Origin: Flavobacteriaceae bacterium MAR_2010_188
GTDB lineage: Bacteria > Bacteroidota > Bacteroidia > Flavobacteriales > Flavobacteriaceae
DNA: 64,000 nucleotides
Assembly: GCA_900104375.1 (NCBI GenBank)
Contig: LT629302.1
Location: 3,268,480-3,332,479 of the forward strand
Reading direction: 5' to 3'
The notes under the pieces are model-generated. The model was given only the letters and a program-made list of their open reading frames with translations. It ran no database searches and had not been told where the DNA came from. Position 1 is the stretch's first letter, and each line of letters begins with the position of its first letter. Shown here one piece after another: positions 29,951 to 49,294 of the stretch. The position numbers and the translations under genes were made by a program.

Positions 29951-30017
29951 TATTTTGCGGACTAAAAATGAAAACTTTAACCACTAGCAAAGAATTATAG
30001 TTCTGATTAAAATTACA

Positions 30018-30056
30018 ATCTAGTATCTAGTATCTAGCATCTAACATCTAATACCT
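30018..30056. repeat. TATCTAG short-word array before hmgA
   Basis: Variants of TAGTATC, TAGCATC and TAACATC repeat about five times, ending seven bases before the hmgA start. Same word family as the atpD-atpC spacer. Confidence 0.6.
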
Positions 30057-30062
30057 TAAGAA

Positions 30063-31223
30063 ATGCCATTTTACCATAAATTAGGGGATATACCCCATAA
30101 GCGCCACACACAGTTTAGAAAGCCAGATGGTACCTTATATTCCGAACAATTGTTCGGTACTATTGGTTTTGATGGAATGTACAGCAATAGTTACCATCAC
30201 CATCGACCGACTCAAGTTAAGGCGTTGTCTAAAGGAGTAAATGTTGCGCCTAAAATCGCAAAAGGAAACCATATACAATCCTATAAGTTCAGAGGATTCG
30301 AAGTAAAACCTGAAGCCGATTTTCTTAAAAGTCGTAAAACTATTTTAACGAATTCTGATTGTTCAATAATTCTTGCTGCTCCACAAAAATCGATGTCCGA
30401 TTATTTTTATAAGAACTCAGACGCGGATGAATTGATTTTCGTTCATAAAGGAACAGGAAAACTACGTACCCATTTGGGGAATCTGGATTTTAAATATGGG
30501 GATTATCTATTAATTCCTAGAGGAATTATCTATAAAATAGATTTTGATTCTGAAGACAACAGATTGTTTATTGTAGAATCCCGAAGACCGATTTATACAC
30601 CAAAGCGCTACAGAAACTGGTTCGGACAGTTATTAGAGCATTCACCTTATTGCGAACGCGATATCCGTAAGCCTTATGAATTAGAATCTCACGACGAAAA
30701 AGGAGATTTTATTATAAAAATTAAAAAGCAGGATGAAATTTTTGACCTTACCTATGCGACACATCCATTTGATGTTGTAGGCTACGATGGTTATAATTAT
30801 CCTTATGCGCTTTCAATTCATGATTTTGAACCTATTACAGGACGAGTTCATCAACCGCCACCAGTCCATCAAACTTTTGAAACAGATGCGTTTGTAGTCT
30901 GTAGTTTTGTGCCTAGGATGTACGATTATCATCCTCAAAGTATTCCCGCGCCTTACAATCACAGTAACATAGATAGCGATGAGGTTCTCTATTATGTGGA
31001 TGGTGATTTTATGAGTCGAAACGATATTGAAGCAGGGCATATTTCATTGCATCCAGCCGGAATTCCTCATGGACCGCATCCGGGAACGGTTGAAAAGAGC
31101 ATTGGCAAAACCAAAACCGAAGAACTGGCGGTTATGGTAGATACCTTTAAGCCTTTAAAAGTTACAGAAGAAGCATTAAAAATCGCAGAAGAGGATTATT
31201 ATAGGTCGTGGTTGGATCATTGA
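30063..31223 (+). CDS. hmgA: homogentisate 1,2-dioxygenase
   Basis: Opens the aromatic ring of homogentisate to give maleylacetoacetate in tyrosine and phenylalanine breakdown, using Fe(II) and O2. The 386 residues are a cupin-fold homogentisate dioxygenase: PFYHKLGDIPHKRHTQFRKP at the start, GTGKLRTHLGNLDFKYGDYL, and HPAGIPHGPHPG near residue 335 which holds iron ligands. hppD, the preceding step of the pathway, follows after the small four-helix-bundle gene. The start ATG 30063 is clear. Confidence 0.95.
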   Translation: MPFYHKLGDIPHKRHTQFRKPDGTLYSEQLFGTIGFDGMYSNSYHHHRPTQVKALSKGVNVAPKIAKGNHIQSYKFRGFEVKPEADFLKSRKTILTNSDCSIILAAPQKSMSDYFYKNSDADELIFVHKGTGKLRTHLGNLDFKYGDYLLIPRGIIYKIDFDSEDNRLFIVESRRPIYTPKRYRNWFGQLLEHSPYCERDIRKPYELESHDEKGDFIIKIKKQDEIFDLTYATHPFDVVGYDGYNYPYALSIHDFEPITGRVHQPPPVHQTFETDAFVVCSFVPRMYDYHPQSIPAPYNHSNIDSDEVLYYVDGDFMSRNDIEAGHISLHPAGIPHGPHPGTVEKSIGKTKTEELAVMVDTFKPLKVTEEALKIAEEDYYRSWLDH

Positions 31224-31224
31224 C

Positions 31225-31261
31225 GAGAGAAGAGAGTAGAGAGAAGAGAATAGAGAGTAGA
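31225..31261 (+). repeat. purine-rich array before the four-helix-bundle gene
   Basis: Pure A/G words with rare T: GAGAGAAGAGAGTAGAGAG, AAGAGAATAGAGAGTAG. It starts directly after the hmgA stop codon and ends at the start of the small gene. A pyrimidine-rich mirror lies at 31639-31662. Confidence 0.65.
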
Positions 31262-31265
31262 AATT

Positions 31266-31637
31266 TTGAAAGTCATAGTGAGCAAACAGAGGCATGATTA
31301 CAAAAACTTGAAGATTTGGACCTTAGGCTTAGAAATGGTAAATGACGTTTTTGATCTTTTTACAGATTTTCCTAAAGATGAGAAATATGGTCTCCAATCT
31401 CAAATAAGCCGATGCTCCATTTCTATTCCTAGCAATATAGCTGAAGGCTCTTCGAGGTCCGATAAAACTTTTTCAAACTATATCGATATTGCTCTTGGAT
31501 CGTCATTTGAATTGGAGACACAACTAATAATAGCTTGCAACAGAAATTATATCAATCAACAAAAACTTAATGATTTACAGAAAAAGATTTCAGAGTTTCA
31601 GAAAATGACCATGAGTTTTCAAAATAAATTTGAATAA
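31266..31637 (+). CDS. four-helix-bundle (S23 / 23S intervening-sequence type) protein
   Basis: A 123-residue all-helical protein of the S23 family: YKNLKIWTLGLEMVNDVFDL, SQISRCSISIPSNIAEGSSR and the tail YINQQKLNDLQKKISEFQKM. The family was first met as the ORF in intervening sequences of 23S rRNA genes, and relatives (Avd) serve diversity-generating retroelements as nucleic-acid binders. The start is uncertain: TTG 31266 or GTG 31278, no ATG fits. It separates hmgA from hppD and is bordered by purine-rich and pyrimidine-rich arrays in opposite sense, so it looks like an inserted unit. Its job here is unknown. Confidence 0.82.
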   Translation: MKVIVSKQRHDYKNLKIWTLGLEMVNDVFDLFTDFPKDEKYGLQSQISRCSISIPSNIAEGSSRSDKTFSNYIDIALGSSFELETQLIIACNRNYINQQKLNDLQKKISEFQKMTMSFQNKFE

Positions 31638-31638
31638 A

Positions 31639-31662
31639 TCTCTTCTCTTTTCTCTCTTTTCC
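31639..31662 (-). repeat. pyrimidine-rich array after the four-helix-bundle gene
   Basis: TCTCTTCTCTTTTCTCTC followed by TTTTCC. Read on the minus strand it is AGAGAGAAAAGAGAAGAGA, a near copy of the upstream array in inverted orientation. Both are low complexity, so exact alignment is loose. Confidence 0.6.
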
Positions 31663-31693
31663 TTATTCTTTAAAATCTAATCATTCAAAAACA

Positions 31694-32854
31694 ATGGACA
31701 ACGAAATTAAATCCGTCAATTACGGACTAGAAAAAATATTTGAAGGAGCAGAGGATTTCCTTCCGCTTTTAGGAACAGACTACGTAGAATTCTATGTTGG
31801 TAATGCCAAGCAATCTGCGCATTTTTACAAAACGGCCTTCGGCTTTCAGTCCTATGCCTATCGAGGTTTGGAGACTGGCGCAAAGGATTCTGTGAGCTAT
31901 GTTCTGAAGCAAGATAAGATACGGCTAGTTTTAACAACGCCTTTGAGCAGTTCTTCGCCTATCAACGACCATATTGTTAAGCATGGTGATGGGGTTAAGG
32001 TTATTGCTCTTTGGGTTGAGGACGCCAAACAAGCATTTGAAGAAACTACCAAAAGGGGAGCAAAACCTTATTTAGAGCCAGTAACAGAAAAAGATGAACA
32101 CGGCGAAGTGGTAAGAGCGGGCATTTATACCTATGGAGAAACAGTACATATGTTCGTAGAAAGAAAGAACTATAATGGTCTGTTTATGCCTGGCTTCGAA
32201 AAATGGGAATCCGATTATAACCCAAGCCCGGTTGGTCTAAAGTATATTGACCATATGGTTGGTAACGTAGGTTGGGGCCAAATGAATACCTGGGTAAAAT
32301 GGTACGAAGAGGTCATGGGATTCGTAAACTTTCTATCTTTTGACGATAAACAGATTCATACCGAATATTCAGCGCTAATGAGCAAGGTAATGAGTAATGG
32401 CAATGGCAGAATTAAATTTCCGATTAATGAACCTGCCAAAGGACAAAAGCGTTCACAAATTGAAGAATATCTAGATTTTTATGAAGGTTCTGGAGTCCAG
32501 CATCTCGCAGTTGCGACAGATGATATCATCAAAACCGTAGCGCACCTTAAAGAAAGAGGAGTAGAGTTTCTACCACCGCCCCCGCAGGCATATTATGAAG
32601 ATATACCAAGAAGATTGGGTGAGCATCGAGATAAGATGAAAGAGGATATTGAACGTTTGCAAGAACTTTCAATTTTGGTAGATGCAGATGAAGAAGGTTA
32701 TCTGCTTCAAATTTTTACCAAGCCAGTTGAGGATAGACCAACTCTTTTCTTTGAAATTATTCAACGGATGGGGGCAAAAGGTTTTGGCGCAGGTAATTTT
32801 AAAGCTCTGTTTGAATCGATAGAACGAGAACAAGCCAAAAGAGGGACTTTATAA
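31694..32854 (+). CDS. hppD: 4-hydroxyphenylpyruvate dioxygenase
   Basis: Converts 4-hydroxyphenylpyruvate to homogentisate, the substrate of HmgA. It has 386 residues with two vicinal-oxygen-chelate domains. The iron ligands are visible: His in KYIDHMVGNV, His in GSGVQHLAVATDDI and Glu in LFFEIIQRMGA; FTKPVEDRPT is also family-typical. It starts ATGGACAACG at 31694, 57 bases after the four-helix gene. hmgA and hppD probably form one transcription unit interrupted by that gene. Confidence 0.96.
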   Translation: MDNEIKSVNYGLEKIFEGAEDFLPLLGTDYVEFYVGNAKQSAHFYKTAFGFQSYAYRGLETGAKDSVSYVLKQDKIRLVLTTPLSSSSPINDHIVKHGDGVKVIALWVEDAKQAFEETTKRGAKPYLEPVTEKDEHGEVVRAGIYTYGETVHMFVERKNYNGLFMPGFEKWESDYNPSPVGLKYIDHMVGNVGWGQMNTWVKWYEEVMGFVNFLSFDDKQIHTEYSALMSKVMSNGNGRIKFPINEPAKGQKRSQIEEYLDFYEGSGVQHLAVATDDIIKTVAHLKERGVEFLPPPPQAYYEDIPRRLGEHRDKMKEDIERLQELSILVDADEEGYLLQIFTKPVEDRPTLFFEIIQRMGAKGFGAGNFKALFESIEREQAKRGTL

Positions 32855-47957: not shown

Positions 47958-48013
47958 TTTAGCTAAAATTGGTTTAAACTTTAAATCTGTTCAGTATTAA
48001 AACTGTATACTGT

Positions 48014-48062
48014 CATAACTCATAACTCATAACTCATAACTCATAACTCATAACTCATAACT
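48014..48062. repeat. seven perfect tandem copies of CATAACT
   Basis: A 49-base tract of seven identical heptamers, ending seven bases before the stop codon of the aldo/keto reductase gene. The unit length is not a multiple of three and the tract is not coding. Confidence 0.9.
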
Positions 48063-48069
48063 CCTAATT

Positions 48070-49107
48070 CTAGGTCGCCGGATTCGGAATTTCTGAATGT
48101 ATTTTCTCAATACCTATCAGAACTTTTTCGCTCAGTTCAACCTCGATGCTCCCAATATTTTCTTCAAGTTGTTTAAGATTGGTTGCTCCAATAATATTAC
48201 TGGTTACAAATGGTTGCTGATTTATAAAGGCCAAAGACATTTGGGCTAAGGTGAGTTCATTTGCTTCTGCCAATTTTAAGTAACGGTTGGTAGCATTTCT
48301 ACATTGCTCACTGCTATATCGACTGAAGTGGGCAAACATATTTAATCTAGATTTTGGAGTATCTAATTCCTTTATATACTTCCCAGAAAGTACACCAAAA
48401 GCTAAAGGCGAGTACGCCAACAATCCAATATTTTCCCGGTGTGAGATTTCTGCCAAATCACCTTCAAATGTACGGTTGAGCAATGAATACGCATTTTGGA
48501 TGGTAATCATTTTTGGTAAGTCATGATGCTTAGATTCTTCCAAGAAACGCATCGTTCCCCAAGCCTTTTCATTGGAAAGTCCAATATGTCGAATTTTCCC
48601 AGCATCAATCATCAATTTAAGATTATGGAGCACTTCATTAAAATCATCTTGCCACTTATCATCCACATTTTGCTTATAGTCTCGATTACCAAAAGTATTG
48701 GTCTGTCTTTCTGGCCAATGCAACTGAAATAAATCAATAAAATCTGTTTGGAGACGCTTCAATTCAGAATTGACTGCATCTTCAACTCCTTCTTTGCTAA
48801 ATCCAGATTCTCGAATATGCGCGGTATATTCCCCACCGCCAACAATTTTACTCCCAATCACCACCTTATCGCGATTTCCTGATTTTTTAAACCAAGAACC
48901 GATGATTTCAGATGTTTTACCTTGAGTTCCAGATTCGGCAGGAACCGGATACATTTCCGCAGTATCAAAATAATTGATGCCTCTTTCTAAGGCAAAATCC
49001 ATTTGGGCGTGCCCTTCTTTTTCGGTATTTTGATTTCCCCAAGTCATTGTTCCGAGGCAAATTTTACTGACTTTAATATCTGTATTTGGGAGGGTTGTAT
49101 ATTTCAT
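48070..49107 (-). CDS. aldo/keto reductase
   Basis: An NADPH-dependent oxidoreductase of 345 residues, Tas-like. The catalytic tetrad is visible: Asp and Tyr in YFDTAEMYP (near residue 50), Lys in IGSKIVG (near 86) and His in LFQLHWPER (near 130). NADP-binding stretches near the C-terminus include NIIGATNLKQLEENI. The substrate is unknown. Both ends of the gene adjoin short-word repeat arrays, so it may sit in an intergenic zone prone to slippage or insertion. Confidence 0.93.
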   Translation of the reverse strand: MKYTTLPNTDIKVSKICLGTMTWGNQNTEKEGHAQMDFALERGINYFDTAEMYPVPAESGTQGKTSEIIGSWFKKSGNRDKVVIGSKIVGGGEYTAHIRESGFSKEGVEDAVNSELKRLQTDFIDLFQLHWPERQTNTFGNRDYKQNVDDKWQDDFNEVLHNLKLMIDAGKIRHIGLSNEKAWGTMRFLEESKHHDLPKMITIQNAYSLLNRTFEGDLAEISHRENIGLLAYSPLAFGVLSGKYIKELDTPKSRLNMFAHFSRYSSEQCRNATNRYLKLAEANELTLAQMSLAFINQQPFVTSNIIGATNLKQLEENIGSIEVELSEKVLIGIEKIHSEIPNPAT

Positions 49108-49120
49108 GTTTTGGGTTATA

Positions 49121-49294
49121 GTTGTTTGTTGCTAGTTGTTTGTTGTTGGTTGTTTGTTTTTGGTAAAATGTCTCAAAGCCTGTTCGCCTTAAGTGGATTT
49201 CAAAGTTTCAAAGTCTCATAGTTTCAAACTTTCAGAGTTGCAAACTTTATAACCGAATCGTTCGCTAATTCGCTAATTTCCTCATTCGCTAATC
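49121..49294. repeat. three adjoining short-word arrays
   Basis: Three different words follow one another: GTTGTTTG variants (49121-49162), CAAAGTTT variants (49199-49247) and TTCGCTAA variants (49260-49294). They fill the gap between the aldo/keto reductase and exonuclease III genes. No promoter or terminator is clear. Confidence 0.65.

Follow-up and report, generated by a model that had tools for sequence, protein, structure and literature searches.

The S23 gene and its arms

The question raised by this locus is why a gene for an S23-type four-helix-bundle protein, framed by a purine array and an inverted pyrimidine array, stands between hmgA and hppD. The window, that is, the whole 64,000-nucleotide stretch that was analysed, comes from Flavobacteriaceae bacterium MAR_2010_188, and an earlier note on it had proposed that gene and arrays form a small mobile or self-inserting cassette. 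The features of the locus, in window coordinates, are as follows.

30063-31223, + strand: hmgA-like gene (homogentisate 1,2-dioxygenase), the upstream host gene (HgmA_N/HgmA_C)
31225-31261, + strand: left arm, a purine heptad array of GAGAATAG-type words (period 7, autocorrelation scan)
31266-31637, + strand: S23 / four-helix-bundle gene (PF05635, TIGR02436)
31639-31662, + strand: right arm, a pyrimidine array, the inverted partner of the left arm (sequence, flank alignment, fold)
31663-31693, + strand: remaining spacer up to hppD, its length as in the 13-42 bp empty-site spacers
31694-32854, + strand: hppD (4-hydroxyphenylpyruvate dioxygenase), the downstream host gene (TIGR01263, E 2.8e-139)

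Both the family assignment and the inverted arrays of the earlier note were confirmed. Specifically, the window protein matches PF05635 (E 8.9e-33, 113.1 bits against a curated cut-off of 33.8) and TIGR02436 (E 2.3e-29, 101.8 bits against a cut-off of 24), which places it in the S23 family by either profile; its start codon is uncertain, being TTG at 31266 (as in the list of open reading frames) or GTG at 31278. The left array starts directly past the hmgA stop codon and the right array directly past the S23 stop codon, and the unit leaves both hmgA and hppD unbroken. As RNA, the arms form a 22-bp closing stem (31227-31236/31652-31661 plus 31238-31249/31639-31650) that MFE and centroid folding predict alike. 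Past this stem the folding offers no structural support, the unit as a whole being unexceptional (z -1.12). The inverted-repeat score of the locus is 31, a value that 2.9% of swapped flank pairs reach or exceed (p 0.029), and the window arm pair taken alone is only mildly unusual. In a control of small open reading frames from the same genome, 3 of 95 scored above 26, the top score being that of the window S23 gene. Elsewhere in the window, heptad arrays without an S23 gene were seen at 30013-30056, 48009-48072 and 49128-49158.

With respect to the protein itself, S23 is conserved and under strong purifying selection: compared with a second S23 copy at hmgA-hppD (L136), the window gene gave a dN of 0.19 and a dS of 2.43, and across six S23 pairs dN was 0.06-0.19, with dS 1.3 to 2.4 or saturated. 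Solved structures exist for S23 relatives (2GSC, 2RLD), and the one from Xanthomonas is described in a passage of PMC4990558 as a pentamer of four-helix bundles.

Occupancy of the hmgA-hppD spacer in relatives

The earlier note suggested that sister species be compared for junctions lacking the gene, and such junctions were indeed found when 28 other same-family genomes with hmgA upstream of hppD were compared. The spacer is only 13-42 bp long in 11 of the 28. Three relics were also present: two loci retain a C-terminal remnant of S23 with the pyrimidine right arm, seen by tblastn in L116 and by eye in L126, and a third (L123) has kept both arms and holds no gene. The rest of the 28 sites contain other spacers or inserts. 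Further S23 copies lie at hmgA-hppD in G134, G238 and Winogradskyella (L136, L145, L273), and a broken copy lies there in G132 (L154). The S23 gene is thus absent at hmgA-hppD from most relatives examined. A target-site duplication could not be read at hmgA-hppD because the empty spacers are too short and divergent.

The empty sites and relics bear out the cassette part of the earlier proposal. Its self-inserting part found no such backing, as the search for self-catalysed insertion revealed no transposase between the arms and no retroelement partner.

Other occupants of this spacer were also observed. A recurrent insert with ends that look similar by eye is present in the hmgA-hppD spacers of L106, L107, L109, L112, L114, L115, L116, L120, L124 and L129; Rfam places a Flavo-1 RNA (RF01705) at 2716-2788 in the L115 spacer and made no such call in L116, L120 or L124. 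By eye, L114, L117 and L132, from three genera, carry a small membrane-protein-like non-S23 gene between hmgA and hppD.

Inverted heptad arms across S23 loci

A profile search of the source genome gave 13 PF05635 matches, and by eye all 13 loci are bordered by short-unit arrays, which are mostly inverted. The repeat word differs at each locus and is common to the two arms of that locus, so the anatomy belongs to S23 genes and the word does not. The earlier suggestion that the same arrays border the other S23 genes of this genome consequently holds in kind, as inverted arrays, and fails in the letter, since identical arrays at every S23 gene were rejected. By alignment score against swapped flanks, 7 of the 13 loci reach p<0.05.

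For a broader assessment, each locus was scored by aligning its left flank to the reverse complement of its right flank, with two controls: flanks swapped between loci, and a complement without reversal that keeps base composition exactly. Among 282 distinct S23 loci (duplicates removed), the inverted score lay above the composition control in 240 and below it in 31 (Wilcoxon p 7.6e-37). Swapping flanks only among loci of the same genome gave the same picture, with own pairs at 30.4 and swapped pairs at 19.4 (p 0.0002; 71 loci, 15 genomes). In the same-family set, which is the stronger part of the listed matches and under-samples weak members, 55 of 103 loci exceeded the 95th percentile of swapped pairs and 34 the 99th, and 48 fell below the 95th; in direct orientation, 16 of 103 exceeded it. 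Own pairs also lay above the 95th percentile at 14 of 23 loci scored in other Bacteroidota families (29 loci used), at 49 of 75 loci on named genome contigs (79 before short flanks were dropped), and at 13 of 28 loci (of 29) from the phylum of a genome titled Planctomycetota (G390). Six genomes titled as other groups (Betaproteobacteria, Alphaproteobacteria, Planctomycetota, Gracilibacteria, Ignavibacteriae and the archaeal Methanophagales) contributed 19 of 27 loci above this mark (27 of 28 used, two partial matches having been omitted beforehand); several of the 27 are the same places as in the named-contig set, and non-Bacteroidota titles of metagenome-assembled genomes may be wrong through contamination.

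The arms also share the 7-nt period of heptamer short tandem repeats. In S23 flanks, identity at lag 7 was 0.415, compared with 0.294 after shuffling, and at lag 14 it was 0.383; the remaining lags were near the shuffled control. The lag-7 peak recurs in the other Bacteroidota families, the named contigs, the six other-group genomes and the G390 phylum.

S23 genes occur in most of the same-family genomes that were sampled (45 of 60; 181 of 249 by protein query), some of which hold ten or more copies. Separately, G395 and G407 have 25 and 21 PF05635 matches, mostly weak, as in a divergent expansion.

Descent of the unit and co-variation of its arms

The closest relatives of the window S23 protein lie mostly at the 'acd' site and have arms of GAGAATAG/CTATTCTC type too. 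From our reading of the end sequences, we take this site to be flanked by a thiolase-like gene and by one resembling acyl-CoA dehydrogenase. A tree of 93 S23 proteins (those without inner stops and with a nameable site) implied 15 site changes, where the minimum possible is 6 and shuffling gives 40.3; it was made by a quick method from few columns and has many open forks, with stars on only 14 of the 90 inner branches. The rows from hmgA-hppD (hmg), together with two sdh rows, fall inside the acd group. For pairs from different sites and different genomes, drawn from 120 of the 127 distinct same-family loci left after merging sets, arm k-mer similarity rose from 0.075 to 0.295 with rising protein similarity (permutation p 0.001), the site labels being rough ones from the text of neighbouring proteins, so that some few of the pairs counted as 'different site' may in fact share one. 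Taken together, the tracking of arm by protein similarity across sites and the moves on the tree indicate that gene and arms travel together. The recurrence of such a frame around S23 relatives in distant bacteria, each with a matching pair of its own, suggests that the gene is inherited together with its frame and now and then moves with it. No recent move was seen between two close strains.

The match between arms is also locus-specific within single sites. Own arms outscored within-site swaps at the fad site (25.8 and 18.1, n=23, p 5e-5), the acd site (27.8 and 19.0, n=46, p 5e-5) and the sdh site (n=6, p 0.004), and were no better than swapped pairs at hmg (p 0.49) and ffh (p 0.18), with five loci each; at a further two sites the loci were too few. 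At the fad site the words vary, for example among TAGTATTGAG, GTATAATGTA and GAGATTTGAG types, and each is met by its own complement. Thus, the two arms stay matched while their shared word drifts, and S23 gene and arms constitute a heritable unit that, over evolutionary time, is found at new sites, where its arms still belong to its own family.

How the arms are kept matched

Chance combined with base composition, an explanation to which the modest single-locus value for the window lends some colour, is refuted for the set by the composition-preserving control and is scarcely credible overall. A more substantive proposal is that the arrays are independent slippage products of the clade and that S23 genes merely share their spacers. 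Heptamer repeats are indeed described from many bacteria in passages of PMC4679880 and PMC4692102, and 464 kb of the source genome contain 20 noncoding arrays, the one at the window S23 gene among them; 17 have period 7 and nearly all lack S23, so that arrays as such are no mark of S23 there. To this extent the objection that the earlier note had raised against its own proposal, namely that arrays might be common where S23 is lacking, is borne out, but it does not extend to the inverted arrangement: 14 S23-free array spacers, with limits set by eye, hold no inverted pairs (own median 12.5, swapped 15). Moreover, 400 kb from eight S23-free same-family genomes contained 0 arrays and 400 kb sampled from eight S23-rich genomes contained 1, and arrays were found at 19 of 80 S23 flanks (16 kb) of the same eight S23-rich genomes. 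In these eight other genomes arrays hardly occur away from S23 flanks, and the notion that they are a mere property of all spacers is true of the source genome only. Given also the co-variation of arms within sites and the way arms follow the protein across sites, we regard independent slippage as improbable.

With regard to RNA, the arms might be complementary in order to form a stem that RNase III cuts, freeing the S23 segment from the mRNA. A passage of PMC4990558 describes just such complementary borders and RNase III excision for S23 open reading frames in 23S rRNA intervening sequences, and the closing stem of the window speaks for this reading too. Orientation is in keeping with this as well: S23 is co-directional with both neighbours at 122 of 125 same-family loci and at 22 of 26 and 65 of 72 loci in other sets, as against 120 of 227 control open reading frames. 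The units therefore lie nearly always in the direction of host-operon transcription, and this sense orientation implies that the unit lives inside transcripts, although no RNA stem would be needed to account for it if S23 is expressed by read-through. Selected pairing in the transcript should make G.U mismatches outnumber A.C mismatches. Instead, arm mismatches at the laxest cut comprised 200 of G.U type and 272 of A.C type, and at a stricter cut 74 and 80; because stricter cuts are about even, our claim is limited to the missing G.U excess. Together with the unremarkable fold of the whole unit, this makes an RNA stem an unlikely account, if the weightiest of the alternatives. Far less probable is copying of the unit by a reverse transcriptase with S23 as its Avd-like partner. 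PF05635 recurs in diversity-generating retroelement (DGR) neighbourhoods and is linked to Avd in a passage of PMC10053308, and the window protein does resemble bAvd (E 1.8e-7) and Avd (E 5.8e-7), both below the curated cut-offs. However, its Avd equivalog score is 29.8 bits against a cut-off of 80, no reverse transcriptase stands next to the window S23 gene, and the sole RVT_1 match of the source genome is at 2016193, >1.2 Mb from the window. A partner reverse transcriptase was rejected as a general feature, given that 5 of the 10 S23-rich genomes searched yielded no RVT_1 match at E<=0.001.

The lack of a G.U excess and the absence of RVT_1 from these five genomes favour upkeep of the arms at the DNA level, the DNA-copying step being favoured here on an absent wobble signature, which is negative evidence. 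The explanation that we hold to be the best as a whole, at somewhat better than an even chance, is an 'S23 cassette', in which an S23 gene stands between a pair of inverted arrays built of ~7-nt units with one common word, the arms are matched by DNA copying, and S23 acts on the resulting hairpin. One arm would be copied to the other at the DNA level, through a hairpin or template-switch synthesis during replication, and 7-nt slippage would lengthen or replace units. The S23 pentamer, presumably expressed by read-through from the host operon, may act on the armed hairpin either by protecting it or by aiding copying and rare relocation. In the window, such a unit would have entered the hmgA-hppD spacer with neither gene broken. 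We know of no biochemical role of S23 on the arms. The shared anatomy with its co-evolving arms provides a first handle on the probable target of S23, and makes its role testable. The puzzle that it poses is how two arrays ~400 bp from each other can go on sharing a word that changes, with no wobble signature of RNA pairing.

By eye, G-rich arrays in the source genome tend to follow stops and C-rich arrays to precede starts, and a CCTGCC...GGCAGG palindrome lies within solo heptad arrays in L168 (~7210), L169 (~16780) and L174 (~6210).

Relation to known systems

The known system nearest to this unit is the rRNA intervening sequence that carries an S23 open reading frame, as in the 23S rRNA of Coxiella and Leptospira, which shares the protein family, an insert of ~430 nt and complementary borders, the last of these being found at the window locus and across the 282 loci. 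The unit described here is built like such an insert but is no rRNA intervening sequence: it lies in the spacer of a protein operon, between hmgA and hppD, its arms consist of 7-nt repeats whose word is specific to the locus, and no rRNA is among the Rfam matches in the L104 locus. In addition, S23 is under purifying selection here, whereas the Coxiella open reading frame is described in a passage of PMC4990558 as under reductive evolution; the same source calls S23 function unknown.

Several other systems share single features with the unit. The P6b stem of the Nostoc tRNA-Leu intron is likewise built of 7-nt repeats, with two interchangeable motif classes, but is a stem-loop inside a group I intron, and no gene is described between its arms in the relevant part of PMC4476775. 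Intergenic 7-nt arrays are formed by TAACTGA in Beggiatoaceae, Cyanobacteria and some Bacteroidetes and by GGGAATC in Xanthomonas, where a passage of PMC4692102 gives 70 and 75 inverted heptamer pairs in two genomes; these heptamers are described as one genome-wide word rather than one per locus, and the passages concerned describe no tie to S23. The Avd protein of DGRs is a related four-helix bundle, from which the window protein differs by its score and by the lack of a nearby reverse transcriptase. As for transposons, the arms enclose only the S23 frame, with no transposase between them, and terminal repeats are not conserved, the words being related only among close S23 relatives. REPtrons (RAYT) also comprise one gene framed by inverted repeats and spread slowly and vertically. 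RAYT, however, is a transposase with a conserved REP sequence, and the S23 unit has neither a transposase nor a conserved arm sequence. Among the passages of open-access PMC literature consulted, none joined S23 genes to inverted heptad arms, and that of PMC5524665 merely lists a four-helix gene between two others.

The anatomy common to the S23 loci also ties together three subjects that the literature consulted treats separately: the intervening sequences of rRNA, heptamer repeats between genes, and orphan genes for four-helix proteins. More tentatively, at a little short of an even chance, S23 genes across bacterial phyla could form the heart of a single, hitherto unrecognised class of element that moves slowly. 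Each would consist of a gene for a small pentameric protein and self-matching inverted 7-nt arms with a free word, would land in sense in transcribed sequence, be it operon spacers or in frame inside genes, with the rRNA intervening sequence as one landing place, and would depend on S23 to keep its arms matched.

S23 genes nested in coding genes

Within coding genes, S23 was found at 3 of 156 loci inside a host frame that stays open across S23 in another frame; such nesting occurred at 0 of 79 loci of the named-contig set. This in-frame lodging recalls the palindromic elements in Rickettsia genes. Two of the three (L227 in G304, L240 in G269) have S23 at the same place in a large DNA methylase gene, and the third (L246 in G289) has it within a pglX-like gene. 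In G324 and G306, homologues of the L227 host align to residue 476-477 and resume at 625-628, the aligned pieces lying only 87 and 18 nt apart, so that most of this stretch of the L227 host is extra. In all three loci, S23 sits in the same frame offset to its host.
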